NCBI GenBank assembly: GCA_902524845.1
Contig: CABZEW010000008.1
Coordinates: forward strand, 1-61,270
DNA: 61,270 nucleotides
Direction: 5' to 3'
Source: an uncultured Alphaproteobacteria bacterium
Lineage (GTDB): Bacteria > Pseudomonadota > Alphaproteobacteria > Rhodobacterales > Rhodobacteraceae
Shown here: piece after piece, positions 2,584 through 18,540 of the stretch
How positions within the stretch are numbered: position 1 is the stretch's first letter
Layout: each line of letters starts with the position of its first letter
Program-made: the position numbers and the translations under genes
The notes under the pieces: model-generated
Database searches by the model: none
Told to the model about the DNA's origin: nothing
The model's input: only the letters and a program-made list of their open reading frames with translations

Positions 2584-3803
2584 AGATTTATTTCAGATAG
2601 TTTTTTATTAAGGTTTGTGTTAACTTTCTCTAGAAATCCCTCTGTTGATAGGTATTTTTGATCCTTGCTAACAAGAATTGCAAGATCCTTAGTCATGTCT
2701 CCTTTTTCGACTGTCTCAATTACTACTTTTTCAAGAGTTTCCGCAAAAGCAGCTAACTGTGAGTTTTCATCTAACTTTGCCCTGTGTTTAAGTCCGCCAG
2801 TCCAAGCATATATCGATGCTATAGAGTTTGTTGAAGTTGCTTCACCCCTTTGATGCGCTCTGAAGTGTCTAGTAACGGTTCCATGCGCTGCCTCTGCCTC
2901 TACTATCTTACCATCAGGAGTCATTAATTGGCTTGTCATCAGACCAAGAGATCCAAAACCCTGTGCCACGGTATCTGACTGAACATCTCCATCATAGTTT
3001 TTACAAGCCCAAACAAAACCCCCAGACCATTTCAGGGCACATGCAACCATGTCATCAATAAGCCGATGCTCATAAATGATACCTGCCTTTTTAAATTGTG
3101 ACTCAAATTCTTTTTCATAAGTTTCCTGAAAAAGATCTTTAAACCTGCCATCATAAGTTTTCATTATTGTGTTTTTTGTTGAAAGATACACGTCCCAATT
3201 CATTTTCAGACCATAATTCATTGAAGCTCTAGCAAAATCAATTATGGATTGGTCTAAGTTATACATTCCCATTGCTATCCCAGATGATGGCGCATCGAAT
3301 ACTTCATGCTCAATTTCTTTTCCATCTTCGCCAACAAACTTCATAGTCAATTTTCCTTTTCCAGGGAATTTAAAATCAGTAGCTCGATATTGATCTCCAT
3401 AGGCATGTCTTCCAACGACAATTGGTTTGGTCCAGCCAGGAACTAAACGCGGTACATTTTTACAAATTATTGGTGCCCTGAAGACCACACCTCCTAAAAT
3501 ATTTCGAATAGTGCCGTTGGGAGATTTCCACATTTTTTTCAATTTAAATTCTTGAACTCTTTCTTCGTCGGGAGTGATAGTAGCACATTTTACAGCGACC
3601 CCATGTTTAAGGGTTGCATTAGCTGCTTGAATAGTAACGTTATCATCTGTGCGGTCTCTCTCCTCTATACCAAGGTCAAAATATTCTAGAGGGATGTCTA
3701 AATATGGAAGTATCAATTTGTTTTTAATGAAGCTCCAAATAATTCTTGTCATTTCGTCGCCATCTATTTCGACAACGGTATTTTCCACTTTAATTTTAGA
3801 CAT
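2580..3803 (-). CDS. icd: NADP-dependent isocitrate dehydrogenase
   Basis: Oxidative decarboxylation of isocitrate to 2-oxoglutarate in the TCA cycle, making NADPH. The 407-residue protein belongs to the eukaryote-like homodimeric IDH type common in alphaproteobacteria, not the E. coli type. It opens with [19 protein letters not shown], carries the substrate loop KSPNGTIRN and the Mg/NADP region [20 protein letters not shown]. Starts at an ATG about 120 bp from the divergent trmJ, so the two promoters share that gap. Tail-to-tail with alaS. Confidence 0.97.
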
Positions 3804-6755: not shown

Positions 6756-7175
6756 ATGTTAAACGAAATGAAAAATGTTAAAGATTTGAAAGCTTACTTT
6801 GAGAAGGTTTTTTCCCAAAAAGCCTTGAGGTTTGAGTTTTTAGAGGTTGATGATGGACATTCTCTTGTAAAGTTAAATCCTAAAGAGGAAGATTTAAGAC
6901 CAGGAAATACCATCTCCGGACCTGTAATGTTCGAGATAGCAGATTGCGCTTTTTATGCGGCAGTTCTTTTCAAAGATCCTGATCCGATGTCTGTTACAGT
7001 AAATTGCTCTATGAACTTTTTCAAAAGACCCAGTGCCAGCGAGTTGTTTGCTAGAGCCACAATATTAAAATTCGGGCAAAAGCTAGTGGTAGGAGAGGTG
7101 ACAATTTATTCTGAAACCTTAAAGAACAGCGTCGCTCAGGCAATGATGACTTATGCTAGACCGGTAAAAAAGTGA
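6756..7175 (+). CDS. PaaI-type hotdog thioesterase
   Basis: Small hotdog-fold protein (139 residues) expected to hydrolyse acyl-CoA thioesters. The LRPGNTISGPVMFEIADCA segment is the hotdog helix with the usual catalytic Asp/Glu region, and VNCSMNFFKRPSASELFARA is the following beta sheet. Starts at ATG 6756 (a second ATG is at 6768). It is upstream of and co-directional with rplM-rpsI, a neighbour often seen near these ribosomal genes in alphaproteobacteria. Substrate unknown. Confidence 0.85.
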   Translation: MLNEMKNVKDLKAYFEKVFSQKALRFEFLEVDDGHSLVKLNPKEEDLRPGNTISGPVMFEIADCAFYAAVLFKDPDPMSVTVNCSMNFFKRPSASELFARATILKFGQKLVVGEVTIYSETLKNSVAQAMMTYARPVKK

Positions 7176-7212
7176 TTCTATTAAAAATAAAGCGAAACTG
7201 TACACTTTGCTA

Positions 7213-7241
7213 TTGACCTAGGGAATTAATGGGTTAAAAGG
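7213..7241 (+). promoter_or_regulatory. Candidate promoter for rplM-rpsI
   Basis: A good -35 match TTGACC (7213-7218) is followed 15-17 bp later by an A/T-rich TTAAAA-like -10 within GGGTTAAAAGG. It sits about 25 bp before the rplM ATG. Assigned by eye only; a second A/T block (TATACG, 7243) could also serve. Confidence 0.3.
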
Positions 7242-7265
7242 TTATACGATTTTAGGATATTTGTA

Positions 7266-7733
7266 ATGAAAACCTTTTCAATAAAGCCTTCAGAGATAGA
7301 GAAGAAATGGATTCTAATCGACGCAGACGGCGTTGTTTTGGGTAGGCTAGCTGCAAGGATAGCCACCATTCTTCGGGGTAAAGAAAAGGCAACATTCACG
7401 CCTCACATGGATATGGGTGATAATGTTATTGTAATAAATGCTGAAAAGGTATACCTCACTGGCAATAAAAGAGATACTAAAACGTACTATTGGCATACTG
7501 GATATCCTGGTGGGATTAAATCTAGAGTCGCTAGCGATATGTTAGAAGGTCAGTTCCCTGAAAGGGTAATTGAAAAAGCGGTAAAACGTATGCTGCCAGG
7601 CGGCCCTTTGTCAAAAAAACAAATGACAAATTTAAAGATCTATAAAGGGGAGAGTCACCCACATGATGGTCAAAATCCAGAAATATTGAGTATCAAGGAT
7701 ACAAACGAAAAAAATACTAGGAGAGTTAGATAA
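7266..7733 (+). CDS. rplM: 50S ribosomal protein L13
   Basis: Early-assembly large-subunit protein binding 23S rRNA. 155 residues: [20 protein letters not shown] at the N-terminus, [18 protein letters not shown] in the middle and the signature [16 protein letters not shown] near 115, all L13 diagnostics. The stop TAA shares its last base with the rpsI ATG (7733), so the two are translationally coupled in the universal L13-S9 operon. Confidence 0.98.
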
Positions 7734-8188
7734 TGGCTGAAACAGGGGAAGTAGTTAGTACGCTAGCTAACGAAGAGGATGAGAAGCCAAAACTCGATAG
7801 CTTAGGAAGAGCTTATTCTACCGGTAAAAGAAAGGACGCCGTTGCCAGAGTTTGGATAAAAAAGGGCAGTGGTAAAATCACAGTTAACAACAAACCAGTA
7901 GAGAAATATTTCGCACGTCCAACCTTGCAAATGATTATACAACAAGCATTTTCGGTTACTAGCGCTGAAAATCAATTTGATGTTATGGCAACTGTAAAAG
8001 GGGGTGGTCTTTCCGGTCAAGCTGGTGCTGTAAGACATGGTATGTCTAAAGCGCTAACCATTTTTGATGGAGAACTACGTTCAGCACTAAAGGCAGCAGG
8101 CTTTTTGACTAGAGACAGTAGGGTTGTTGAACGCAAAAAATATGGAAAGCCTAAAGCTAGAAGATCATTTCAATTTTCTAAGCGCTGA
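7733..8188 (+). CDS. rpsI: 30S ribosomal protein S9; target of the island
   Basis: Small-subunit protein whose conserved C-terminal Ser-Lys-Arg tail reaches the P-site tRNA. 151 residues with [20 protein letters not shown], the [20 protein letters not shown] block and the tail [10 protein letters not shown]. The last eight codons double as an attachment site: similar bases recur at 15553-15576 and 17088-17112 and would encode SFQLSKR and SFIFSKR before a stop. So integration swaps the gene's 3' end for an equivalent one and leaves S9 intact. Confidence 0.98.
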
Positions 8189-8350
8189 TTTTTTCACGCT
8201 ACAGTTTTTAATAAAATCGTTATAAAACAAGCTCTTAGTCGTTTTTAAGTGCTTTTTTCTACGAGTCACATTTGGGTCACATTTTCGATAATCGCTTTAT
8301 TTTATTGAAGGCGTTTGCTACGATGAGTCACAAAAGAGTCACAGAGTCGT
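8164..8350. other. Left end of element 1: att in rpsI, terminator, arm repeats, core
   Basis: Order: att (8164-8195, the 3' end of rpsI and its stop), A/T-rich spacer, hairpin, two GAGTCAC-type arm repeats at 8263 and 8274 (11 bp apart), a 37-bp core (8288-8324), then two more GAGTCAC copies at 8325 and 8336 (11 bp apart). The same architecture recurs at 15556 and 17099. Eleven-bp phasing puts the repeats on one face of the helix, as expected for integrase arm sites. The integrase gene begins 20 bp further on. Confidence 0.8.
8231..8258 (+). terminator. Intrinsic terminator carried at element left end
   Basis: Hairpin GCxCTTA / TAAGxGC with a GTCGTTTT loop, followed by a run of T. The equivalent hairpin is perfect in the second left end (CACTTA/TAAGTG, 15620-15639, with a longer T run) and near perfect in the third (17155-17172). 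Because it lies beyond the rpsI stop, it probably terminates rplM-rpsI and insulates the element. Confidence 0.6.
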
Positions 8351-8371
8351 TTCAGATTCACAAAAAATGCG

Positions 8372-9832
8372 ATGGTAGAAAACACTAATCAATACTTAGA
8401 AAAGACAGAGATAGAAGGGTTTGGAGGTAATCTCTTTCTCTACAAGCGTCTTGAGAATGCGAATGCTGACTCAAAAGACATATGGCATTACAGAGCAAAG
8501 ATAGTAGGTATGAAAGGCTATGTTAGAAGAAGTACTAAAGAGACTAACTTCGAACCAGCAAAACGTAAGGCTGAACAAGATTACATTGATAATACGTACA
8601 AATTTAAGAACAAATTAGAAGTAAATGTAACGTATGTTCGTACTGCTATTCAGAATTATCTAAAGCATATTTCTGAAAAGAAGTATTACATAGATAACTC
8701 TCAAAGATATAGATACGTAAAGAATACTTGGTACAGATATATGCATGGCTACTTCGGTGACATGAAAGTATCAGAAATAACAGAAGCAGAACTTGAAGGT
8801 TATTGGCACTTCAGAAGAGATTATTATATCAAAGGTGCTGGTAAAGAACTGATGGCTTCTAATAAGAATAGAGTTAATGCAAAGACACAAACTAGCAGAA
8901 ACATTAGAGTTAGATTTAGTTATGGTACTGCTCGAGCAGAAGCTAGTGTTATCAATCAATTCTTCGCATGGTGTTACGATAGTAGGGTAGGGCTTACTTC
9001 AAAAGTATTAAAGACATCTGCTAAAGACGCTTTTGAATCAGTTGATGTTAATAAGAAAAATAGACGTCCTCATTTTGATGAAAAAGATTGGCGAATTGTC
9101 AGGCAGAATTTAAAGAACTATGCAGAGTGTAAAGGTAGATTTGAAGTAAGATACGATAGAGAGTGGGTGCCTAAATCAAGATTTATGATGCGGACTTTCA
9201 TCTTATTTCTTGGTTCTACTGGCATGAGATTAGGTGAAGCAAAGCAGATTCGTTGGAAAGATATACGTTTTGATAAGAAACAAAATGCAATAATCGTCAA
9301 TGTTGATGAATCTACTAGTAAAGTGAGAAGAGGTAGAGATGTTGTTGCACACAGTACTTGGATTGGTTCTCTACTTGATGAATGGAAAGAGATGTCAGAT
9401 TTCACTAAAGATAGTGATTTAGTGTTCTATGCAGTTAAAGAAAACAATCCAGATACTCAGAATGTTTGTGATGTATCTGTAAGTTTTAAGAACTTTCTTA
9501 AAGAAATAGGAAAATTAGAGAATGAAAGAGGTAAGGTAAGAACTCTTTATAGTCTAAGACACACATATGCTACTTTGAGATTAGAGGCTGGTGTTGAAGT
9601 ATATAATCTAGCAAAGAATATGGGTACTAGTGTTCAACAAATTGAATGGCATTATGGACACGTAAACACAAAAAAGATTGTTGGTGACTTAACAAAAGGT
9701 GGCAGTTTGAAAGATACTCAGAAAGCAAAAGACATTGAGTTAGCTGCTGAAATGATTACTCTCTTACGCGATGGCACTCTTGATGAAAAAGCTGTTGCTT
9801 CTGCACTAAAGAATATAGCTATTAATAAATGA
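8372..9832 (+). CDS. Tyrosine recombinase (site-specific integrase)
   Basis: 486-residue integrase that would excise and insert the element at the rpsI 3' end. The catalytic domain shows TGMRLGEAKQIRWKDI (first Arg near residue 286), TLYSLRHTYATLRLEAG (Arg 396, with Tyr in place of the usual first His of HxxR), and MGTSVQQIEWHYGHV with the likely nucleophile Tyr 428. The N-terminal about 250 residues form the arm- and core-binding part. It sits beside the att site pointing inward, the standard place for an integrase. A decapitated copy of its first codons is at 17283. Starts at ATG 8372. Confidence 0.95.
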   Translation: MVENTNQYLEKTEIEGFGGNLFLYKRLENANADSKDIWHYRAKIVGMKGYVRRSTKETNFEPAKRKAEQDYIDNTYKFKNKLEVNVTYVRTAIQNYLKHISEKKYYIDNSQRYRYVKNTWYRYMHGYFGDMKVSEITEAELEGYWHFRRDYYIKGAGKELMASNKNRVNAKTQTSRNIRVRFSYGTARAEASVINQFFAWCYDSRVGLTSKVLKTSAKDAFESVDVNKKNRRPHFDEKDWRIVRQNLKNYAECKGRFEVRYDREWVPKSRFMMRTFILFLGSTGMRLGEAKQIRWKDIRFDKKQNAIIVNVDESTSKVRRGRDVVAHSTWIGSLLDEWKEMSDFTKDSDLVFYAVKENNPDTQNVCDVSVSFKNFLKEIGKLENERGKVRTLYSLRHTYATLRLEAGVEVYNLAKNMGTSVQQIEWHYGHVNTKKIVGDLTKGGSLKDTQKAKDIELAAEMITLLRDGTLDEKAVASALKNIAINK

Positions 9833-9839
9833 AATTGGG

Positions 9840-9950
9840 ATGAAAAATGATAACAATAATCGAGGTTTATTTATTGTATGGCTAATGGTTGCTGTGGTTA
9901 TCTTTCTTCATTTTTTGTTAATTCCTATTTGGCTTCATTTCTTCCTATAA
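9840..9950 (+). CDS. Possible 36-residue membrane peptide
   Basis: A short frame starting 7 bp after the integrase stop: a polar MKNDNNNRG head, then one hydrophobic segment (FIVWLMVAVVIFLHFLLI) and a short aromatic tail. No clear ribosome site. It could be a co-transcribed small membrane protein or chance coding in A/T-rich DNA. No family recognised. Confidence 0.3.
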   Translation: MKNDNNNRGLFIVWLMVAVVIFLHFLLIPIWLHFFL

Positions 9951-9975
9951 CTAATTCGAACAACCATTTTTTGTT

Positions 9976-10356
9976 TTAGGCAGGGAAGGTAATGTCTGAA
10001 AGAGCATAAATTTTCCAACCGTTATTTGTACTTTTAAAAGCATAAAACGCCGTTGCTTCCTCAATAAGTGAACCGTCGCTTCTTAGCCTCCTAACATTGC
10101 GGATTACAACATGAGCTTTCTTGTCGGAAACTGCTACGACATCTATTTCAAAAGCGTTGCTTGTTGCCCATCCAATTTTCTCTTTTAGTTCTCGAGGATC
10201 AATTGGAAACTTATCTAACATTTTTACTGAATCTCCACCGATATAAGCTAAGGGATAAGAAATACAATCATTTATTGTTTCCATATCCGACTCTATAAAA
10301 GCATTCGAGTACCTATTATAAGTCTCAAACACTTGTGCTCTAAGGTTCTTATCCAT
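9976..10356 (-). CDS. NTF2-like/SnoaL-type small protein, copy 1
   Basis: 126 residues with the cone-shaped NTF2-like pattern: a helical N-terminus (VFETYNRYSNAFIESD), an Asp-rich hairpin, then long strands VVIRNVRRLRSDGSLIEEA and a C-terminal WKIYALSDITFP. Enzymatic or ligand-binding role unknown. It is nearly identical to the gene at 12094-12474 in the same element, and a third decayed copy lies at 18367-18487. A GGAGA ribosome site precedes the ATG. It is divergent from the GST gene. Confidence 0.75.
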   Translation of the reverse strand: MDKNLRAQVFETYNRYSNAFIESDMETINDCISYPLAYIGGDSVKMLDKFPIDPRELKEKIGWATSNAFEIDVVAVSDKKAHVVIRNVRRLRSDGSLIEEATAFYAFKSTNNGWKIYALSDITFPA

Positions 10357-10448
10357 TATTTTCTCCGTTTTTTTTTAAGTTTGTCACTTATTGCATTTAA
10401 GATAAAGTTCTATAAGTTCGTATTTAGAACTAATTATCAGAGTAAAAA

Positions 10449-11117
10449 ATGAACATAACATTGATTTATCTTGATTTTCCTTTTTGGAGAGCTGAGGTTT
10501 CTAGAATTGCTCTTTTTATGGGTGGGATTGAGTTTAACGATAGAAGGATTAATTCAGAGGAGTTTCAGAGAGTAAAATCAAATGGGTGTTTAGATGATGG
10601 AACTTTGATCCCTTTTGGACAATTACCCGTATTAATAGTAGATGGTGTTTCTGTTGCTCAGACAGGAGGCATAGCAAGGTTCTGTGGAAAACTGGCCGAT
10701 TTATATCCCAAAGATGATGATTTACTGGCTGCTCAAATCGATCAGTTTATTGATTTTCAAACAGATGTATTTAATTGGATAATATTTTCTGGAAAAGATG
10801 TTTCAGAAGAGCAGAAACTGTTGAATAGAGAAAAATTAGTTGAAGGAGAACTCAAAAGAAAACTCAAAATGTTAGAAAAATTTTTATCTGCTTCAGGATC
10901 TTGGGCGGCTGGCTCTAATATAAGTATTGCTGACTTAGCTCTTTGGAGAAACATGGGTTGGTTGGTATCAGGAACAATTGATGGCATCCCAAAAAACATT
11001 TTGAATGAATTTCCAAAGATAAAAAGCATTTGCAGTTTGGTAGATGAACATCCGGAAGTTGTGGAATGGATGTCACGTACCTATCCAAAAAATTACCCCA
11101 GAGGCTCTTTTAAATAA
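10449..11117 (+). CDS. Glutathione S-transferase family protein
   Basis: 222 residues: an N-terminal thioredoxin-like domain (MNITLIYLDFPFWRAEVSRI; FGQLPVLIVDGVSVAQTGGI, the cis-Pro and Ser/Asp glutathione-binding motif) and an all-helical C-terminal domain containing NISIADLALWRNMGW, the family's N-capping box. Probably a cytosolic sigma/mu-like GST used in detoxification. A second, frameshifted copy with matching upstream sequence lies at 21005-21627. Carried as cargo of element 1. Confidence 0.88.
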   Translation: MNITLIYLDFPFWRAEVSRIALFMGGIEFNDRRINSEEFQRVKSNGCLDDGTLIPFGQLPVLIVDGVSVAQTGGIARFCGKLADLYPKDDDLLAAQIDQFIDFQTDVFNWIIFSGKDVSEEQKLLNREKLVEGELKRKLKMLEKFLSASGSWAAGSNISIADLALWRNMGWLVSGTIDGIPKNILNEFPKIKSICSLVDEHPEVVEWMSRTYPKNYPRGSFK

Positions 11118-11168
11118 AAGTTATTTCAGCCTTACCCGATATTACTATCCCAGCTTGAAATGAATTCT

Positions 11169-11276
11169 TTAAGCAAATAGCTTTTTAATTAATCTTTTAA
11201 GCACTTCTTCTTCGTCACTGCATTTGTTAACAGGTTCCAGAAGCAAAAGTTGCTTAGTTTTTTTTTCAATTGTCAT
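11169..11276 (-). CDS. Small hypothetical protein (35 residues)
   Basis: Short frame with a well placed ribosome site (GGAGAG, 6 bp before ATG 11276). Product begins MTIEKKTKQLLLLEP, then an acidic CSDEEE stretch and a basic helical tail. No family recognised. It lies alone in the 290-bp gap between the GST and the two-helix membrane protein, on the opposite strand; the remainder of that gap holds nothing else I recognise apart from an A/T-rich promoter-like stretch before 11410. Confidence 0.45.
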   Translation of the reverse strand: MTIEKKTKQLLLLEPVNKCSDEEEVLKRLIKKLFA

Positions 11277-11409
11277 GATGCTCTCCGCTTTAGTGATTTA
11301 GCGTTATGCAAGGCTCACAAGTTGGTAATTAAATGCCTATATTTCTTTATACACTGTATGATATCATCTTCAAGATAAAAGACATAGGTGTCACCGGAGA
11401 TTTAGAGCT

Positions 11410-11658
11410 ATGAGCAATGAGAAAAATGACAATGATAATGAGCCACAATACATAAAGGAAGAAAGAGCCAAAGATGAAAAGGTTCAAGATTTTTTTATAG
11501 GCGCTCCCCTAGTTGGAAGCTTTATAGCTGTAATTGCTTCATACATGGGTTGGATAGGATTGAATGATTTTTTTGGTTTGGCTGGTTGCTGGGTTGTAGG
11601 GTATTTTTTAAATCTATGGATATTAAAGCCTATTCTTCAAAAAAGAGGTTGGTATTAA
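11410..11658 (+). CDS. Small two-helix membrane protein
   Basis: 82 residues: a charged, Asn/Glu/Lys-rich N-terminal 28, then two hydrophobic segments (LVGSFIAVIASYMGWIGL and FGLAGCWVVGYFLNLWIL) and a short basic tail. Probably inner membrane. No recognised family and no obvious partner. Starts at ATG 11410 about 10 bp after a GGAG. Convergent with the YwqK/MORN-like gene. Confidence 0.6.
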   Translation: MSNEKNDNDNEPQYIKEERAKDEKVQDFFIGAPLVGSFIAVIASYMGWIGLNDFFGLAGCWVVGYFLNLWILKPILQKRGWY

Positions 11659-11676
11659 TCATCTTCTAATAAGAGT

Positions 11677-12072
11677 TCATTCAAACCACTTTCTTTGAGT
11701 TTCAATGATATTCCCGTTGTCATAAAGTTCTTTCGTCAACAAGTTACCCCCTTCATCAAAAACTTCTCTCCAACCATGGGGAACATCATTAAGAAAACAC
11801 ATCCTGGTTTCGATGGTGCCCGTAGTTGGATGGAAAAACTCACTAACCCCATGTTTCTGCCCATCTTTGACTTGAAAGAATGTTTCAAGTTTTCTGTTAC
11901 CTGAGATAGGGAAATATATTTCTGAGCAACCATGCATCAATTTGTTTTTATATTGAGATATCTCATGTCTCATCAATTTATTATTATTTGGATCAGAAAT
12001 ATATTCTCTTACATAACCAATACCTAACAATCCCTTAATGAGATTAATTATATTAATATGCCAAATTCTCAT
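11677..12072 (-). CDS. MORN/YwqK-like repeat protein
   Basis: 131 residues with spaced G-x-x-H-G-x-x-x-x-F motifs typical of MORN/YwqK repeats (DGQKHGVSEFFHP, NDVPHGWREVFDEGG). Function unknown; such proteins often bind peptides or membranes. It is the last gene of a five-gene minus-strand run starting with the resolvase at 13648, 21 bp after the second NTF2-like gene. No signal peptide apparent. Confidence 0.6.
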   Translation of the reverse strand: MRIWHINIINLIKGLLGIGYVREYISDPNNNKLMRHEISQYKNKLMHGCSEIYFPISGNRKLETFFQVKDGQKHGVSEFFHPTTGTIETRMCFLNDVPHGWREVFDEGGNLLTKELYDNGNIIETQRKWFE

Positions 12073-12093
12073 AAGTGTTATCCATTTTTTGTT

Positions 12094-12474
12094 TTAGGCG
12101 GGGTAGGTGATATCTGAAAAAGCATACATTTTCCAACCGTTATTTGTATTTTTAAAAGCATAAAATCCCGTTGCTTCCTCAATAAGAGAACCGTCGCTTC
12201 TTAGCCTTCTAACATTGCGGATTACAACATGAGCTTTCTTGTCAGAAACTGCTACGACATCTATTTCAAAAGCGTTACTTGTTGCCCATCCAATTTTCTT
12301 TTTTAATTCTTGAGGATCAACTGGAAACTTATCTAACATTTTAACTGAATCTGCACCGATATTAGCTAAGGGATAAGAAATACAATCATTTATTGTTTTC
12401 ATATCCGCTTCGTTAAACGCATTTAAATATCTATTATAAGTTTCAAACACTTGTGCTCTATGGTTCTTATCCAT
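12094..12474 (-). CDS. NTF2-like/SnoaL-type small protein, copy 2
   Basis: 126 residues, differing from copy 1 (9976-10356) at only about 18 positions, so a recent duplication inside one element. Conserved parts include NDCISYPLA, GWATSNAFEIDVVAVSDKK and NVRRLRSDGSLIEEAT. Its start overlaps the preceding gene's stop by 8 bp, which indicates translational coupling in the resolvase-led operon. Function not known. Confidence 0.75.
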   Translation of the reverse strand: MDKNHRAQVFETYNRYLNAFNEADMKTINDCISYPLANIGADSVKMLDKFPVDPQELKKKIGWATSNAFEIDVVAVSDKKAHVVIRNVRRLRSDGSLIEEATGFYAFKNTNNGWKMYAFSDITYPA

Positions 12475-12766
12475 TTTTTATTCCTTTGTTTGTAAATACA
12501 TGCTTCACAACCATATCTCCTGACAGTCTGAAATTCTCCTTAACAAGATATTTAAGTTTGCCTGATGTACGACTTTCAGCAAGACTACGCGCTTTTTCGT
12601 TGGGATAAACTGAAACGCCCACACAGCTTGTTTCAGTTGTTTTAATCATCAATAACATTTCAGCATCAGGGTATAGAGTTGGACTGTCTCTTTCATACGT
12701 TTCCAGAAAATCTTCCATAGCCTCTTTTGTTTCAAAATCCATCGATACAACGTTAGTTGGTGTCAT
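12467..12766 (-). CDS. Hypothetical protein, dimeric alpha-beta barrel-like
   Basis: 99 residues with alternating strand-helix pattern (NVVSMDFETKEAMEDFLETY; EMLLMIKTTETSCVGVSVYP) resembling small dimeric alpha-beta barrel proteins found in marine proteobacteria. No catalytic residues assigned. Overlaps both neighbours (ATGA junction with the upstream gene, 8 bp with the downstream one). Confidence 0.55.
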   Translation of the reverse strand: MTPTNVVSMDFETKEAMEDFLETYERDSPTLYPDAEMLLMIKTTETSCVGVSVYPNEKARSLAESRTSGKLKYLVKENFRLSGDMVVKHVFTNKGIKNG

Positions 12767-13104
12767 TTTTTAACCTCTACTTTTGTTATTCGCTCAACAT
12801 TTCTCCACAACTTACCTTCAGTATTCATTAGAGCCATACCAACAACGCGATAAACTTCATCATCTTGTTTTTCGAGTCGTGAATAATTCATAATTTCGTC
12901 GTTTACAAAAAGACACTCTTCTTCATAAAAATAATCTGATATATTCTCTATACTTTTTAAGCCATCTTTAACTCTTTCTAAAAAATCATCTCTGCTATGC
13001 ATTTGGCTTTCAAAAATAAGTATGAAGTCCTCTGCAACCCAATCCTCTAAAAGCTCAAAATCTTTATTGTGCAGTATGTGGATCATCTTTTCGTAAGAAT
13101 TCAT
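12763..13104 (-). CDS. NTF2-like (DUF4440/SnoaL-type) protein
   Basis: 113 residues: MIHILHNKDFELLEDWVAED is the first-helix pattern of SnoaL/DUF4440 proteins, followed by short strands and FLERVKDGLKSI. Different from the other two NTF2-like proteins here. The start is one base past the resolvase stop and its stop overlaps the next start (ATGA), so it is the second gene of the operon. Function unknown. Confidence 0.6.
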   Translation of the reverse strand: MNSYEKMIHILHNKDFELLEDWVAEDFILIFESQMHSRDDFLERVKDGLKSIENISDYFYEEECLFVNDEIMNYSRLEKQDDEVYRVVGMALMNTEGKLWRNVERITKVEVKK

Positions 13105-13105
13105 A

Positions 13106-13648
13106 TCAAGCCACTTTCTCTAAATTTCTATACACACTATTTCTGCATATGTTCATCGCTTTAGCAACTTTAGAAACAGACTTTAGTTCTGCGTAGAGCT
13201 TGTTAATCTCTGCTCTATCAATAGTTGCTTGTCTGCCCTTATACGCATTACGTTCTCTTGCTCTAGCAATACCTTCTGCTTGTCTGCTCCTTATTATCTT
13301 TCTTTCGAACTCAGCAAACGCACCAAGGATTTGAAGTAACAGTTTGTCTAAAGCACTATCACTAGAGCCATCGAACTTTAGCTTCTCAGTGATGAATGAG
13401 ATGCTTGCACCTTTCTCTTTAATCTTAGTCACTATTGTTTCTAAGTCTCGCAAGTCTCTCGCAAGTCTATCGATGCTATAAACTATCACTTCATCTCCAT
13501 CTCTAACGAAAGACAGCATCTTATTAAGTGCAGCCCTATCTGCATTCTTTCCGCTAATCTTTTCTTCGAATATCTTTTCTACTTCACCTAACTCTTGTCT
13601 ATCGAAGTTCTGTTCAGTTGTGCTTACTCTTCTATATCCGACTCTCAT
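13106..13648 (-). CDS. Serine recombinase (resolvase/invertase)
   Basis: Catalytic domain of the gamma-delta/Hin type: MRVGYRRVSTTEQNFDRQ with nucleophile Ser 9, the Arg cluster YSIDRLARDLRDLE, the helix E region LLLQILGAFAEFERKII, and a C-terminal helix-turn-helix (VSKVAKAMNICRNSVYRNL). I start at ATG 13648, which follows a GAGAAAG ribosome site and gives the canonical N-terminus; 16 more codons are open upstream to 13696. First gene of a tight operon with four small cargo genes. It could resolve or invert DNA between the repeats described nearby. Confidence 0.92.
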   Translation of the reverse strand: MRVGYRRVSTTEQNFDRQELGEVEKIFEEKISGKNADRAALNKMLSFVRDGDEVIVYSIDRLARDLRDLETIVTKIKEKGASISFITEKLKFDGSSDSALDKLLLQILGAFAEFERKIIRSRQAEGIARARERNAYKGRQATIDRAEINKLYAELKSVSKVAKAMNICRNSVYRNLEKVA

Positions 13649-13664
13649 TTCTTTCTCATGATTC

Positions 13665-13778
13665 GTTACATTTAACTCTAATATTAAATGGAACATGTTA
13701 CATTTGCAAGATGTATCAGTAAATGTAACGCTTTTGAGAGTGATTAGATTTGTTCATTATGAGTAAACTTAATGTAAC
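13665..13778. promoter_or_regulatory. Nested GTTACATT inverted sites upstream of the resolvase
   Basis: Four copies of one octamer: GTTACATTT at 13665 and 13697, and its complement AAATGTAAC at 13721 and AATGTAAC at 13771. The inner pair is symmetric around 13713 and the outer pair around 13721. They fall between the resolvase start and the next cargo gene, the expected position of a res site or an autoregulatory operator. Confidence 0.5.
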
Positions 13779-13795
13779 AGCTGGTGATTGTCTCA

Positions 13796-13833
13796 AACTG
13801 GACTTTAGAGATGTGTTGTGAGATGATTTGAGT
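13796..13833. repeat. Outer inverted repeat, left arm
   Basis: Reads, on the minus strand, as an ATCATCTCACAACACAT... motif ending AAAGTCCAGTT. The same motif occurs in opposite orientation at 14889-14924 and, partly, at 18512-18540 before the GNAT pseudogene. The two arms enclose about 1.05 kb. Confidence 0.7.
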
Positions 13834-13866
13834 CTAGTTTCTATAGAGGACTTCATATTACGTTTT

Positions 13867-14178
13867 ATGTTATTGGCATGATTAGCTATTTCTTTGTTAG
13901 GATGTAAAACAAATCTTACTCAAGATGGAAGGATAGAGAACGCAAAGAATAACTGCGAAAAGTATGGTTATAAAAAGGGTTCAAAAGAATTTACTAAATG
14001 TGTCGAAAGTGAAGCAAGAGCTATAGAAGCTAATATGAATCAAGGGATAAGAAATTTAGCGATATACAACGCTTATAGAAACTCGTACTCAACTCCTAGC
14101 ACGTCCCTAATAGCTCCAAGAAGCACTAATTGCACAACCCCATTTTGGGGGAGAACAGCCAATACAAATTGTTATTAA
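13867..14178 (+). pseudogene. Lipoprotein-like gene with in-frame TGA in its signal peptide
   Basis: The frame reads MLLA-stop-LAISLLGCKTNL: an ATG at 13867, a TGA at 13879, then a hydrophobic stretch ending in the lipobox-like LLGC. After the Cys come about 85 codons with paired Cys, Asn/Tyr-rich sequence and a Ser/Thr/Pro-rich tail. A TTG at 13894 could start a shorter cytosolic product. The simplest reading is a lipoprotein inactivated by a point mutation (for example TGG to TGA). Family unknown. Confidence 0.5.
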
Positions 14179-14214
14179 TCACAAAGTACGAGCTACCTTT
14201 TATTTTTAAATCTT

Positions 14215-14262
14215 CTTACTCAAAAAAAGACATATTGAGAAGATAGCATTCATCTTGCTGTC
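14215..14262. repeat. Inner inverted repeat, left arm (48 bp)
   Basis: Pairs with 14663-14710 in inverted orientation: 12 matching bases, a short divergent patch, then 23 perfect bases and a nearly matched end. Each arm also contains its own small hairpin (GATAGCA/TGCTATC or a one-mismatch form). Together they bracket one 117-codon gene. Confidence 0.75.
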
Positions 14263-14278
14263 TGTGTCTGCTGAGTCT

Positions 14279-14632
14279 CTAAGGAAATTTACAATCACAT
14301 ACATTGTCTAGAATAGTCTCAGCTTGTTTGTGAAGTTTCTTCAATGCTCTGTTGTTATACTTGTTCTCTTTTTCAAATCTCAACGTATCGTCTTCTGGAA
14401 AGTGATGAAAAAAGAAATCAATGATAAATCGATTTTCATCACACTTTGTATATGAGTATTTTTTCTTATCCATCATTTCTTTTGCTAAGCTTTTGAACTT
14501 CTTTGGTAAGACTTTTGAAATCATTTCAGTCGTTAGTTCTTTTTCACCTTTAAGTTTTTTAAATGCAGTCTTCAGTCGATATGTCTCTAACGCTAATTTG
14601 ATTGAATTTGGATTAGTAGCTTCAGTTGTCAT
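14279..14632 (-). CDS. Hypothetical basic protein between 48-bp inverted repeats
   Basis: 117 residues, rich in Lys and Glu with an aromatic stretch (NRFIIDFFFHHFPEDD) and a C-terminal helix ending CDCKFP. Predominantly helical, probably cytosolic. No recognised domain; no DDE or HUH transposase motif, so not an obvious IS protein. Convergent with the lipoprotein-like gene. Because it is bracketed by inverted repeats, its transcript could fold its two ends together. Confidence 0.5.
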   Translation of the reverse strand: MTTEATNPNSIKLALETYRLKTAFKKLKGEKELTTEMISKVLPKKFKSLAKEMMDKKKYSYTKCDENRFIIDFFFHHFPEDDTLRFEKENKYNNRALKKLHKQAETILDNVCDCKFP

Positions 14633-14662
14633 AATGAACTTACTGATGCACTTGCGATAACT

Positions 14663-14710
14663 GATAGCAAGATGAATGCTATCTTCTCAATGCTTCTGTT
14701 TTTGAGTAAG
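14663..14710. repeat. Inner inverted repeat, right arm (48 bp)
   Basis: Inverted partner of 14215-14262. Lies immediately upstream (on the minus strand) of the 117-residue protein's start. Confidence 0.75.
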
Positions 14711-14725
14711 TGAACTTAATTTTTG

Positions 14726-14887
14726 TTAGTGACATATCGCAAAGCTTTTTGCTATCTGCAGTACTAACTGAGGATTGTTAATAATTAAATCTTCAAGCCA
14801 TAGGAAAATCCGAAATAGACTCAGTGCTAAAACAATTACAGAAATTATTACTAGAGTGAAACTTTGCTGAGTTAGAACATTAACCAT
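14726..14887 (-). CDS. Small single-span membrane protein (53 residues)
   Basis: A short open frame from ATG 14887: MVNVLTQQSFT, then one long hydrophobic segment (LVIISVIVLALSLFRIFLWL) and a polar tail. No strong ribosome site. It fills the otherwise empty stretch between the inner and outer right arms. No family recognised; could be chance. Confidence 0.35.
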   Translation of the reverse strand: MVNVLTQQSFTLVIISVIVLALSLFRIFLWLEDLIINNPQLVLQIAKSFAICH

Positions 14888-14888
14888 G

Positions 14889-14924
14889 CTCAATCATCTC
14901 ACAACACATTTCTGAAGTCCAGTT
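14889..14924. repeat. Outer inverted repeat, right arm; start of GNAT cassette
   Basis: Inverted copy of 13796-13833. From here through the GNAT gene the sequence is also directly duplicated at about 18512-19096, so the motif marks the left border of a repeated GNAT cassette. Confidence 0.65.
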
Positions 14925-14979
14925 AATGAGCATCTACTAAAAACTAGACATAAGGAATTCTCTATGGGATTTTTATTTT

Positions 14980-15480
14980 ATGCTACTCCAAACCAACCGA
15001 CTTATCATCGAACACTTCAAAGATAGTGATATTCCGGATTGGGGGAAAATAGAGAGTGATGCTGACGTTAGACGCTTTGTTGATGGGAAAGTACTCTCTT
15101 TAAAAGAGGCTGGTGAATATGTAGAAATAAATATTAGACAGTATCAAACACATGGTTATGGAAGATATGCAGTTCGATTAAAAGAAAACAGTAAACTTAT
15201 TGGTATGTGTGGCTTTCTAAATGAACCGTATGGAATTGATTTTGGTTATCGCTACTCTAAAGATAGCTGGGGGAAAGGCTTAGGGTTCGAAGCGGCAAAA
15301 GAAGTACTTGAATATGGCTTTTCAGAATTAGGATTAGAGAAAGTACTTGGACTGACTGCTGAACAGAATTTGGGTTCTATCCGAATTCTTGAAAAATTAG
15401 GTTTCAAGTTTGAAGAGAAATTTTTATTCAATAATACTAAAGCATTCAAGTATAACTATACTGGAGGCTCTGACATATGA
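14980..15480 (+). CDS. GNAT acetyltransferase (RimJ/RimL-like)
   Basis: 166 residues: begins LLQTNRLIIEHFKDSDI, the strand-helix start of RimJ/RimL-type N-acetyltransferases, and carries the acetyl-CoA loop KDSWGKGLGFEAAKEVL and motif B NLGSIRILEKLGFKFE. Likely acetylates a protein N-terminus or small amine; target unknown. Last gene of element 1, its stop only about 8 bp from the right-end arm repeats. A nonsense-inactivated copy is at 18598-19096. Confidence 0.88.
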   Translation: MLLQTNRLIIEHFKDSDIPDWGKIESDADVRRFVDGKVLSLKEAGEYVEINIRQYQTHGYGRYAVRLKENSKLIGMCGFLNEPYGIDFGYRYSKDSWGKGLGFEAAKEVLEYGFSELGLEKVLGLTAEQNLGSIRILEKLGFKFEEKFLFNNTKAFKYNYTGGSDI

Positions 15481-15488
15481 TTAAGCTT

Positions 15489-15560
15489 GAGTCACAAATG
15501 AGTCACATAATTTTATTGTTCTTAAAAAAATATAAAAATCAATAGCTTGCAGTCATTTCA
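15489..15560. other. Right end of element 1: arm repeats and right-end module
   Basis: Two GAGTCAC copies at 15489 and 15500, 11 bp apart, matching the sequence and spacing at the left end of the same element (8263/8274, 8325/8336). Then an A/T-rich module (GTTCTTAAAA...AAATCAATA...CTTGC) also found at the right end of element 2 (about 17054-17090). It abuts the next rpsI-like att site. Confidence 0.75.
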
Positions 15561-15731
15561 GTTGTCTAAGCGTTGATTTTTTCACGCTACAGTTTTAAAT
15601 AAAATCGTTATAAAACAATCACTTAGTCGTTTTTAAGTGCTTTTTTTTTTGAATGCACGTTTGATGCATGTTTTTAATAATCGCTTTATTTTATTGAAGG
15701 CGTTTGCTACGATAATGCACGTTTGATGCAG
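15553..15731. other. Left end of element 2: att, terminator, distinct arm repeats, core
   Basis: Second copy of the rpsI-end att (would encode SFQLSKR-stop), the same spacer and a perfect terminator hairpin (15620-15639 plus a ten-T run). The 37-bp core (15677-15713) is identical in length and nearly in sequence to that at 8288, but the flanking arm repeats are ATGCACG-type (15653/15664 and 15715/15726) instead of GAGTCAC, again at 11-bp spacing. No integrase follows. Confidence 0.78.
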
Positions 15732-15771
15732 GTTATCTTTCCAGATGCTCGAAAACCCGTTTTAAAGACGC

Positions 15772-16266
15772 TTAGTTGTATAAAACCTTTTTCTCAGTTT
15801 CGTTATCTTTAGAAACATCACCAATTATTTTTAACAGAGCTTGTACTCCTACTGCAAAATCCTCAGCCGCATAAACTAGTTCGGGGGCAAGATCAGCATC
15901 AGTTAGTAAAAGCCCTATAAGAATTGAATCTTTTTTGTCTGTATAAGTTGATCTAGTTACTAATTGAGCAAAACAATTCTCATCAGCACCAACACATTTG
16001 CAATTCAATTCGTGACTAACAAGACGCCGTCTTCCATTATTCTGTAATTTGTTGTAAAGAAATTGTAGTGCTCCAATAGTTTTATTTGCTTTTTCTGTAC
16101 CTAAATAAAAACGAAATTCTTCATAGATCTCCAAGAGAGCCTCAGAGCCTTCGAAACAGCATCTAAAATAGTAAATTACTAAATGCTCTTCCCAGCTTAA
16201 ATCTGACATTATAGCTACGGGTGAGCCACCTTTAATTTGAGTCTTCGTCTCCGAATTCGTTTTCAT
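15772..16266 (-). CDS. Conserved hypothetical protein with CKC motif
   Basis: About 164 residues: LSWEEHLVIYYFRCCFEGSE, a central NNGRRRLVSHELNCKCVGAD with a Cys-Lys-Cys, then helical FAQLVTRSTYTDKKDSILIG. The overall pattern resembles an uncharacterised alphaproteobacterial family with a conserved CKC-GGDE segment (from memory, not searched). I start at ATG 16266, behind a GGGGGA ribosome site; an ATG at 16281 is also in frame. Function unknown. It is one of two intact cargo genes in the integrase-less element 2. Confidence 0.65.
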   Translation of the reverse strand: MKTNSETKTQIKGGSPVAIMSDLSWEEHLVIYYFRCCFEGSEALLEIYEEFRFYLGTEKANKTIGALQFLYNKLQNNGRRRLVSHELNCKCVGADENCFAQLVTRSTYTDKKDSILIGLLLTDADLAPELVYAAEDFAVGVQALLKIIGDVSKDNETEKKVLYN

Positions 16267-16509
16267 TGTTTTTTCCCCCATATAAATACAAAAACTCTAA
16301 ATAATTCTGCAAAAAATCACTATCAGAGCTCAAAAAAATCTGTTCCTCAAATAACTCATACTTAAGCATTAATTTTATCAATTTATCTTTTTCTATTCTT
16401 TAAGGTTGAAAATTTTTGAGATATATTTATTTCCGATTAAAATAGTCATGATTCAAACTTGACTATTTTAGTAATATTTGTCAATATAAAATTTTAGGGA
16501 GTAAATAAC

Positions 16510-16638
16510 ATGTCAGACTGGTATCTATTTCATGGTTAAGCAATTGTATCCGTCGTTTTATCAAGTTTTGGAGCAGGGTATTATACGTGCCTTATCCAGA
16601 ACAAAAAAATTAGGAAGTTGTTAAAAAACAATTTATAA
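16510..16638 (+). pseudogene. Small membrane protein frame broken by TAA
   Basis: ATG 16510 opens MSDWYLFHG, a TAA follows (16537), and the same frame continues with a hydrophobic AIVSVVLSSFGAGYYTCLI and a basic tail QNKKIRKLLKNNL to a second stop. A GGGAG-like site precedes the ATG. It reads as a single-span protein of about 42 residues with one nonsense mutation. Could instead be non-coding. Confidence 0.35.
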
Positions 16639-16654
16639 CGCCAAGGGCTCTGTA

Positions 16655-16957
16655 ATGTACATCGCTATGAATCGGTTTAAGATCAAACTAGGAAAAGAAG
16701 AGCAGTTTGAGAATATTTGGAAAAATAGGGATTCCCATCTCGATAAAGTCGATGGATTTATAGAATTTAATCTTCTACGATCAAAGTCTAATGATACCTA
16801 TACTTTATTTGCTTCCCATAGTGTGTGGAAAAGTTCTAAACATTTTGAAAATTGGACAAAATCTGAGTCCTTCAGATTAGCTCATAAAAATGCAGGAAGT
16901 GCTAAAGACATATATCTAGGGCATCCTGATTTTGAGGGCTTTGAAGTAAGGATTTAA
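16655..16957 (+). CDS. ABM/IsdG-type heme-degrading monooxygenase
   Basis: 100-residue dimeric alpha-beta barrel protein. The residues that form the IsdG catalytic triad fall at the expected positions: Asn 6 (YIAMNRFKI), Trp 67 (ENWTKS) and His 77 (RLAHKNAG). IsdG-like enzymes cleave heme to release iron, so this may help iron acquisition; activity is inferred from the family only. Starts at ATG 16655. Cargo of the mini-element, facing its right end. Confidence 0.82.
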   Translation: MYIAMNRFKIKLGKEEQFENIWKNRDSHLDKVDGFIEFNLLRSKSNDTYTLFASHSVWKSSKHFENWTKSESFRLAHKNAGSAKDIYLGHPDFEGFEVRI

Positions 16958-17025
16958 TCTACTCTTACAAATAAAAATAGATCCTATGTCATATGTTGCC
17001 ATAGCAGATAAGAGTAATCTTTTCG

Positions 17026-17095
17026 GTGCACGTTTGACGCACGTTTTAAAAGTGTTCTTAAAATAACAATGAAATCAATATCTTGCTGTCTTTTA
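17026..17095. other. Right end of element 2: matching arm repeats and module
   Basis: GTGCACG (17026) and ACGCACG (17037) are spaced 11 bp apart and match the ATGCACG-type arms of the left end of element 2, not the GAGTCAC arms of element 1. They are followed by the right-end module GTTCTTAAAA...AAATCAATA shared with 15518-15550 and then the third att copy. Confidence 0.7.
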
Positions 17096-17253
17096 TATTT
17101 TCTAAGCGCTGATTTTCTCACTACAGTTTTTAATAAAATCTTTATAAAACTAGTACTTAGTCGTTTTTAAGTGCCTTTTTTTGTGAGTCACATTTTCGAT
17201 AATCGCTTTATTTTATTGAAGGCGTTTACTGCGGTATGTCATAAAAGAGTCAC
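17088..17253. other. Left end of element 3: att, terminator, degraded GAGTCAC arms
   Basis: Third att copy (would encode SFIFSKR-stop), spacer, hairpin (17155-17172), one GAGTCAC (17185; the partner expected 11 bp away has been deleted), the 37-bp core (17199-17235, a few changes), then a mutated ATGTCAT (17236) and an intact GAGTCAC (17247). Element 3 belongs to the element 1 type but its arms are decaying. Confidence 0.72.
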
Positions 17254-17282
17254 AGAGTCGTTTCAGATTCAAAAAAAATGCG

Positions 17283-17345
17283 ATGGTAGAAAACACTAAT
17301 CAATACTTAGAAAAGACAGAAATAGGCGAGAAGGGTTGGTGGTAA
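17283..17345 (+). pseudogene. Integrase remnant (first codons only)
   Basis: Identical to the integrase start at 8372 for MVENTNQYLEKTEI, then diverges to GEKGWW and a stop. The remainder of the gene is missing; about 110 bp of unrecognised sequence leads to the FkbM gene. Element 3 can therefore not encode its own integrase. The region 16958-17455 holds otherwise only the element ends listed here. Confidence 0.8.
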
Positions 17346-18487: not shown

Positions 18488-18511
18488 ATTACCCTTCAAC
18501 TTTCTTACATC

Positions 18512-18540
18512 GCCTCACAAGACATTTCTAAAGTCCAGTT
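18512..18540. repeat. Third copy of the CTCACAA...AAGTCCAGTT motif
   Basis: Same motif as 14889-14924, in the same orientation and at a similar distance (about 60 bp) upstream of the GNAT reading frame. Confidence 0.6.

Follow-up and report, generated by a model that had tools for sequence, protein, structure and literature searches.

Paired heptamers 11 bp apart as probable integrase addresses of tandem islands on a common rpsI attachment core

How can related integrative islands lie side by side at the 3′ end of one gene, on the same core sequence, and still be told apart by the recombinases that move them? This question is raised by a contig of an uncultured Rhodobacteraceae bacterium (CABZEW010000008.1), of which we analyzed a window, that is, the whole stretch of 61,270 nucleotides; its source genome, G000 (genomes are given here by G numbers), measures 1.95 Mb in 89 contigs and is 74% complete. 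A 94-nt direct repeat, consisting of the last bases of rpsI and the stretch that follows, has further copies at 15553 and 17087, and these copies delimit two elements, element 1 of 7.4 kb (8180 to 15568) and element 2 of 1536 bp (15568 to 17104), together with the left end of a third, decayed element (Table 1). Beside the core, elements 1 and 2 carry paired heptamers of two different sequences. Comparison across related loci suggests that the heptamers probably are integrase arm sites that act as island-specific addresses on a common target. That the paired repeats are integrase arm sites at all is quite likely; whether the two sequences are truly discriminated is, in our judgment, evenly balanced.

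The two heptamer types, S (the GAGTCAC pairs of element 1) and M (the GATGCAC(G) pairs of element 2), stand in the same register and differ mainly by GT versus TG at positions 3-4, along with a different following base (A or G). All six pairs (twelve positions) reported by a first-pass annotation of this DNA were located, each spaced 11 bp, and the left pairs of either element lie 62 bp from each other. The ATGCACG type that it gave for element 2 is exact at 15653 and 15715, the other four copies being one base off (ATGCATG, ATGCAGG, GTGCACG, and ACGCACG). Its statement that the sequence between pairs is common was borne out: the spacer between the left pairs of element 1 recurs at 15677-15713 and, with three changes, in the third partial left end after 17104, where pair 1 has one copy left, pair 2 is half decayed and only the first codons of the integrase persist. 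Since the core is common to the elements, the heptamer would be the identifying part of the site.

Table 1. Features of the rpsI array, by position in the window
Feature	Position	Strand	Remarks
rpsI (ribosomal protein S9), host target gene	7733..8188	+	ORF (open reading frame) named from sequence; C-terminus RRSFQFSKR
attL core repeat, element 1	8165..8258	+	rpsI 3′ end, weak hairpin and T run
Common core AAGCGCTGA	8180-8188		within element 1 attL; pattern match
Left arm pair 1, element 1, type S	8263..8280	+	GAGTCAC / GGGTCAC; starts 8263/8274
Spacer between arm pairs 1 and 2	8288..8324	+	common to elements 1 and 2
Left arm pair 2, element 1, type S	8325..8342	+	GAGTCAC / GAGTCAC; starts 8325/8336; directly upstream of int
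Tyrosine integrase of element 1	8372..9832	+	486 aa (amino acids); catalytic domain PF00589
Serine resolvase/invertase, element 1 cargo	13106..13696	-	PF00239
Right arm pair, element 1, type S	15489..15506	+	GAGTCAC / GAGTCAC; starts 15489/15500; 79 bp from core
IHF (integration host factor) consensus, right pair-core interval, element 1	15537..15549	+	9/9
Core repeat, attR (element 1) / attL (element 2)	15553..15646	+	repeat search
AAGCGTTGA	15568-15576		core in attR/attL repeat between elements 1 and 2
Left arm pair 1, element 2, type M	15653..15670	+	ATGCACG / ATGCATG; starts 15653/15664; GATGCAC register starts 15652
Left arm pair 2, element 2, type M	15715..15732	+	ATGCACG / ATGCAGG; starts 15715/15726
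ORF of element 2, 169 aa	15772..16281	-	no Pfam or PHROG match
ORF of element 2, ABM-domain protein	16655..16957	+	PF03992
Right arm pair, element 2, type M	17026..17043	+	GTGCACG / ACGCACG; starts 17026/17037; 78-79 bp from core
IHF consensus, right pair-core interval, element 2	17073..17085	+	9/9
Left end of decayed third element, type S	17104..17325	+	

The 11-bp spacing was evaluated with and without the motifs. In 20 stretches from the window's genus, S-like sites (at most one mismatch) pair at 11 bp 19 times, the next spacing, 19 bp, occurring 12 times; M-like sites pair at 11 bp 17 times, the next spacing occurring 5 times. Without reference to a motif, an 11-bp repeat is present in 18/22 regions upstream of related integrases, and any other spacing from 7 to 30 bp in at most 9/22. 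The regions of G301, G117, G174, and G515 have no such repeat; the G515 integrase lies 1.3 kb from its own left arms, the region counted was the wrong stretch, and the proper stretch does have one. With one region per lineage the repeat occurs in 11/12, compared with a mean of 2.6 and a maximum of 7 in 200 first-order Markov resamplings, and the next listed spacing, 20 bp, in 6/12. The 11-bp spacing is thus well above chance.

The placement of the pairs relative to the core is kept in related elements, with the right pair 78-79 bp from the core and the left pairs 50-62 bp apart. A motif-free search located an 11-bp repeat at a distance of 77-80 bp ahead of the core in seven right ends from outside the genus (G117, G405, G515, G1050, G384, G500, and G416), at the right end upstream of the second integrase of G534, at position 3709 of G174 and at six right ends of the genus; further matches (G045 3920, G174 3112, and G300 1980) look like chance, and G361 and G045 showed no right end on the 20 kb examined. 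Left and right types agree in 11 of the 14 elements with both right-pair copies: elements 1 and 2 of G000, the first elements of G300 and G299, and those of G117, G405, G515, G1050, G384, G500, and G416. Left out of the 14 were right ends with one or no legible copy (first and second elements of G172 and G314, second of G300, first of G302 and of G307); among these, a single M-like right copy agrees with an M left end in the first element of G172, the second of G300, the second of G314 and the first of G307, and the right type is illegible in the second element of G172 and the first of G314. On contig 57 of G534, a TTAGCA right end precedes the TTTACA-like left end of a next element that has an integrase of its own, and the TTAGCA-type integrase of this genome lies on a different contig; G534 is an independent case, in another genus, of neighbors with different arms.

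Between right pair and core, 11/15 right ends with a two-copy pair hold a perfect match to WATCARNNNNTTR, which we take to be the IHF consensus. These comprise 9/11 (shuffle p 0.01-0.03 each) and 2/4; perfect matches are also found in 4/6 decayed right ends, compared with 14/199 and 9/694 AT-rich 61-nt windows from the same loci as background. IHF matches on the left arm were no better than shuffles. In phage lambda, a single Int can bind core and arm sites together because proteins bend the DNA between them (PMC4880445).

We propose that elements 1 and 2 are tandem integrative islands at the rpsI 3′ end, each with a lambda-like attachment site whose core is the rpsI 3′ end itself. The right arm consists of one heptamer pair 78-79 bp from the core with an IHF bend site between them, and the left arm of two pairs, directly upstream of int where that gene is present. 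Each pair most likely serves as arm-type sites to which two protomers of the cognate integrase would attach by their N-terminal domains, on one helical face, and the heptamer would be the address of the island on the common core. The element 1 integrase would then act on S-armed ends, and element 2, with M arms and without an integrase, would depend on an M-type integrase supplied in trans from another source. The site architecture, the spacing, the IHF consensus, the layout kept throughout the family and the recurrence of element 2 are observed; we infer that the integrase binds these pairs, that S and M do not cross-react and that element 2 still moves.

The element 1 integrase (PF00589 at an E value of 2.5e-12; phrog_1, integrase) is, judged by sequence, a member of an unnamed family of tyrosine integrases that target rpsI in the window's taxonomic family and in other families of the class. 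The 18 aligned integrases are 26-98% identical to it. The same rpsI tail stands upstream of related integrases, on the same stretch for 17/18; the exception is the second integrase of G534, behind another element's right end. Across 18 sequences, of which one is cut short, R286 is invariant and R396, H397, and Y428 are almost invariant; we take these residues to be catalytic. Among 22 genomes of the window's genus, left-end DNA was matched in 19, rpsI in 17 and an integrase of any kind in 9. Complete copies of the element 1 integrase occur in G000, G300, and G309, each behind S/S left arms, pieces in G297 (at a contig end), G301, G172, and G302, and distant integrases only in G303 and G311. 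In the first left ends of G172 (L061) and G302 (L084), the integrase remnant consists of the first codons followed by the last 41-42 residues, with M arms in G172 and decayed S arms in G302. Integrases nearly identical to that of element 1 are also present in other uncultured Alphaproteobacteria records, which we take to be marine single-cell genomes of Rhodobacterales.

Wider draws, which overlap, differ in their E-value limits and gave many matches to the catalytic half only (left out of use), yielded integrase matches in 42/295 genomes of the family, 34/390 of the order, 7/385 of the class and, again for the family, 26/394; further draws gave 1/2, 3/54, and 2/14 genomes, and a scan of genome contigs gave four loci. 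Viral contigs held no match to the window integrase or to that of L097, the alignment of integrases finding one weak locus there (L136), and phage records gave catalytic-domain matches only (8 records).

Five heptamers recur in this family: GAGTCAC, GATGCAC, TTAGCA, GTAACA, and TTTACA. Among the loci with the rpsI tail, GAGTCAC left arms are found in the window's genus and in G799, with a similar sequence in G1033 and GAGGCGC in G725; GATGCAC-like ones in G301 (one copy) and L097 (integrase 51% identical), with GAAGCAC in G056; TTAGCA, exact or with one or two changes, in G117, G534, G405, G515, G1050, and G361; GTAACA in G045; and TTTACA-like ones in G011, G174, G384, G500, and G416. The second G534 integrase, on a contig without rpsI, also has TTTACA-like left arms. 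The left arm of G115 is illegible at a contig end. When the heptamers are put in a common register, CA occupies positions 5-6 in most of them (GAGGCGC and TTAGCGT are among the exceptions), and positions 1-4 differ between lineages. Two observations on individual members may be added: in G045 (L004 near 1490-1501) the integrase start is out of frame with a homologous N-terminus in the ORF found, and the G1050 element has ORFs (L175:3217-3789 minus and 6784-7935 minus) that by eye resemble a short second tyrosine recombinase and a DNA methyltransferase.

To the first-pass annotation the arms looked like recombinase specificity tags that keep tandem neighbors from cross-recombining, and it proposed to test their covariation with the N-terminal domain of the integrase. 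Across 17 integrases (the truncated G799 was excluded), arm and integrase distances are correlated (Mantel r 0.72 for the N-terminal, 0.78 for the core-binding and 0.79 for the catalytic domain; p 0.0002), and so the lack of association that would have counted against the tags was not what we found: arm sequence goes with integrase lineage. An effect specific to the N-terminal domain did not emerge. Given the catalytic domain, its partial Mantel r is 0.02 (p 0.38), or 0.003 (p 0.46) in nine dereplicated integrases, and the catalytic domain given the N-terminal domain retains a partial r of 0.47 (p 0.0002). As nothing ties this association to the N-terminal domain in particular, plain co-inheritance of arms and integrase explains it.

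Such co-inheritance leads to the alternative that carries the most weight, namely, lineage drift, in which ordinary arm sites change along with their integrases and the difference between neighbors plays no separating role. It would account for arms that track the whole-integrase phylogeny, and it fits the comparison of neighbors by pair 1 type, decayed ends included, in which 8/12 differ and 4/12 are alike (G302, G299 twice, and G307); a regular alternation of S and M along arrays was dropped as weak on the same counts. However, several genomes combine S and M elements on the same core within a single array, and none of the five S/M-mixed left ends described below belongs to an element with an integrase match. 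We regard drift as a serious contender that is nonetheless somewhat unlikely.

The partial correlations are one of several results that weigh against the heptamers being addresses read by the N-terminal domain. In the genus, 31 core copies at 18 loci include 23 with the spacer and two left pairs, 18 of them legible (at most 5/14 mismatches per pair to the better type, a cut-off that we set on the output); 11/18 are pure, 2/18 ambiguous (G297 and G296) and 5/18 chimeric. The order is M then S in the third left end of G172, the second of G299, G311, and the second of G307, and S then M in G308; pair 2 has 5/14 mismatches, that is, is half decayed, in the second left end of G299, G311, and G308. 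Arms therefore do not always switch as a set: that claim of the first-pass annotation stands for the window's two elements and fails as a general rule. In all five mixed ends the bases beside pair 1 follow the pair 1 type and the change, placed by eye, falls past the start of the shared spacer. This is consistent with recombination or deletion between neighbors by way of the spacers that they have in common.

Right ends add further exceptions. Left and right types disagree or are mixed in 3/14 elements: G309 has S left and M right, 10 kb apart, and possibly represents two fused elements; G174 has a TTTACA-like left end with a truncated integrase and a TTAGCA right end; and the second element of G299 has a mixed left and an S right end. 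The first element of G302 joins a decayed S left end to a single M copy on the right, and four of the 15 right ends (the first element of G300, G384, the upstream element of G534, and G174) lack a perfect IHF match. GAGTCAC serves both the window's integrases and the distant one of G799 (a similar sequence that of G1033), so there is no strict correspondence between heptamer and integrase lineage. None of the 22 genomes of the genus, mostly incomplete, yielded a complete M-type integrase.

The N-terminal part of the integrase, roughly 85 aa, is predicted to form strands and then a long helix (85-residue model with a predicted local distance difference test score, pLDDT, of 76, moderate); the full-length model was too poor for use (pLDDT 45). 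The N-terminal part matched no arm-binding family in Pfam (8 scanned), its model matched no solved or viral structure at E ≤ 0.001 (the best PDB row was an AP2 repeat, E 1.6), and the whole integrase, for the first member listed, matched only general recombinase models, below their cut-offs. Two candidate determinants of S versus M were rejected. S-context integrases begin MVENTNQYLEK, the M-context G301 fragment MVEEATKYLDK and L097 MTKYLDR; G301 and L097 fit a role of these first residues, and the M-context remnant of G172 contradicts it, as it begins MVENT like the S-type ones and unlike G301. A longer N-terminal loop marks S integrases within the genus, but distant S-armed integrases have short loops. 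As to the specificity tags, then, the pairs are placed as arm sites should be, on both sides of the core at fixed distances and with IHF matches in most right ends; what the tag reading lacks is an effect specific to the N-terminal domain, sets that never break and a known M integrase partner in G000.

The last point concerns element 2 and its mobility. Neither of its two ORFs of at least 80 aa has a recombinase or relaxase family match in Pfam or PHROGs, and in G000 (74% complete) the sole match to the element 1 integrase is element 1's own, which leaves the M arms without a known partner in that genome. A unit of 1536 bp makes up element 2 both in G000, where it is second in the array, and in G299, where it comes first and adjoins rpsI; in G300 it measures 1535 bp. 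The G000 and G299 copies are 95.4% identical (rpsI, 83.6%), the partial G309 copy is 87.8% identical (rpsI, 81.6%), and the G300 copy is 84.6% identical, close to rpsI at 83.1%, and hence does not speak for a recent transfer. Over 1.65 kb, identity at the integrase end of element 1 reaches 96.5% (G300) and 95.0% (G309), compared with 83.1% and 81.6% for rpsI. With identities above those of rpsI, the element 1 integrase end and the G000-G299 pair of element 2 look younger than the host divergence. Element 2 is flanked by related attachment (att) sites and has no recognized recombinase or transfer gene, as is expected of a cis-mobilizable element (CIME).

The 11-bp repeats might instead bind a recombination directionality factor (RDF; Xis/Apl-like), the type switching with each element's own factor. 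RDF sites such as those of Apl take the form of direct repeats at att sites, spaced by one helical turn (PMC7498355). However, the pairs stand on both arms at fixed places, the repeats are retained in elements without an integrase, and no RDF family was matched in element 1 ORFs (10 in Pfam, 7 of these in PHROGs, and 6 further small ORFs by eye). With an IHF consensus lying between right pair and core, integrase arm sites are the preferable reading, and we consider RDF sites improbable. A main role as operators for int autorepression is very improbable. It would fit the position of pair 2 directly upstream of int, a weak promoter-like match over pair 1 (8265-8292) and the example of KplE1 IntS, which represses its own gene, the promoter of which overlaps the attL region (PMC2951348). 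However, promoter matches are not above chance (one versus 0.8 expected), and the right-end pair of element 1 lies more than 5 kb from int. An operator role would also be compatible with arm-site function.

Apart from the integrase and the resolvase, element 1 encodes a glutathione-S-transferase-like protein, an acetyltransferase protein and small proteins without Pfam assignment. No relaxase or conjugation gene was found among 10 element 1 ORFs in Pfam, 12094-12474, 13894-14178 and smaller ORFs lying outside the scan. Two 126-aa ORFs, 9976-10356 and 12094-12474 (minus), are recent duplicates (300-nt repeat, 93% identical), the scanned member having no Pfam match. Inverted repeats of 33 nt (13796-13828 and 14892-14924, 94% complementary) flank 1.1 kb with two small ORFs, and a related copy at 18504-18540, past the left end of the third element, sits next to a second gene for an acetyltransferase (87% over 555 nt). 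The hairpin in the attL core repeat is no better than shuffles (z -1.1).

Among known systems, lambda attP/Int is alike in having a core and two arms with arm-type sites on both sides and IHF sites between (PMC4880445). The array shares with it the catalytic domain and arm repeats flanking a core, with IHF matches on the right ends, and the S hexamer AGTCAC is exact in the annotated lambda "int 2" site (L185, 27623, minus strand). Unlike lambda, the arm sites here come in 11-bp pairs, int adjoins the left arm, no Xis was recognized and the N-terminal sequence of the element 1 integrase gives no alignment with lambda Int. In KplE1, int likewise lies directly downstream of the attL arm sites, but separate TorI sites exist there and the arm motif contains TAAA (PMC2951348).

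The target gene has precedents as well: rpsI is a target of integrative and conjugative elements (ICEs; PMC4701971), and arrays at the rpsI 3′ end have been described in Streptococcus salivarius (PMC7563491). Those arrays of ICEs, integrative mobilizable elements and CIMEs are likewise tandem, some members lacking recombination genes and keeping their att sites. They differ in residing in other bacteria, no relaxase or conjugation gene was found among the element ORFs scanned here, and a switch of arm sequence between neighbors is not mentioned in the parts of PMC7563491 consulted.

Taken together, what looks new, within the literature searched, is the anatomy of the rpsI integrase family and the use of different arms on a common core. 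A broader picture, tentative and in our view doubtful, is that an integrase family spread through the class has diversified a four-base variable address (NNNNCA) at paired arms with the core kept, giving mutually blind, stackable islands, satellites that lack an integrase and use a distant one by virtue of a matching address, and hybrid addresses from crossovers in the shared spacer. The natural integrase series, with five heptamer types on one core, could be used to locate arm-reading residues and could be a source for orthogonal integration tools. If the heptamers do act as addresses, they would account for the stacking of related islands at a single essential gene without mutual excision.

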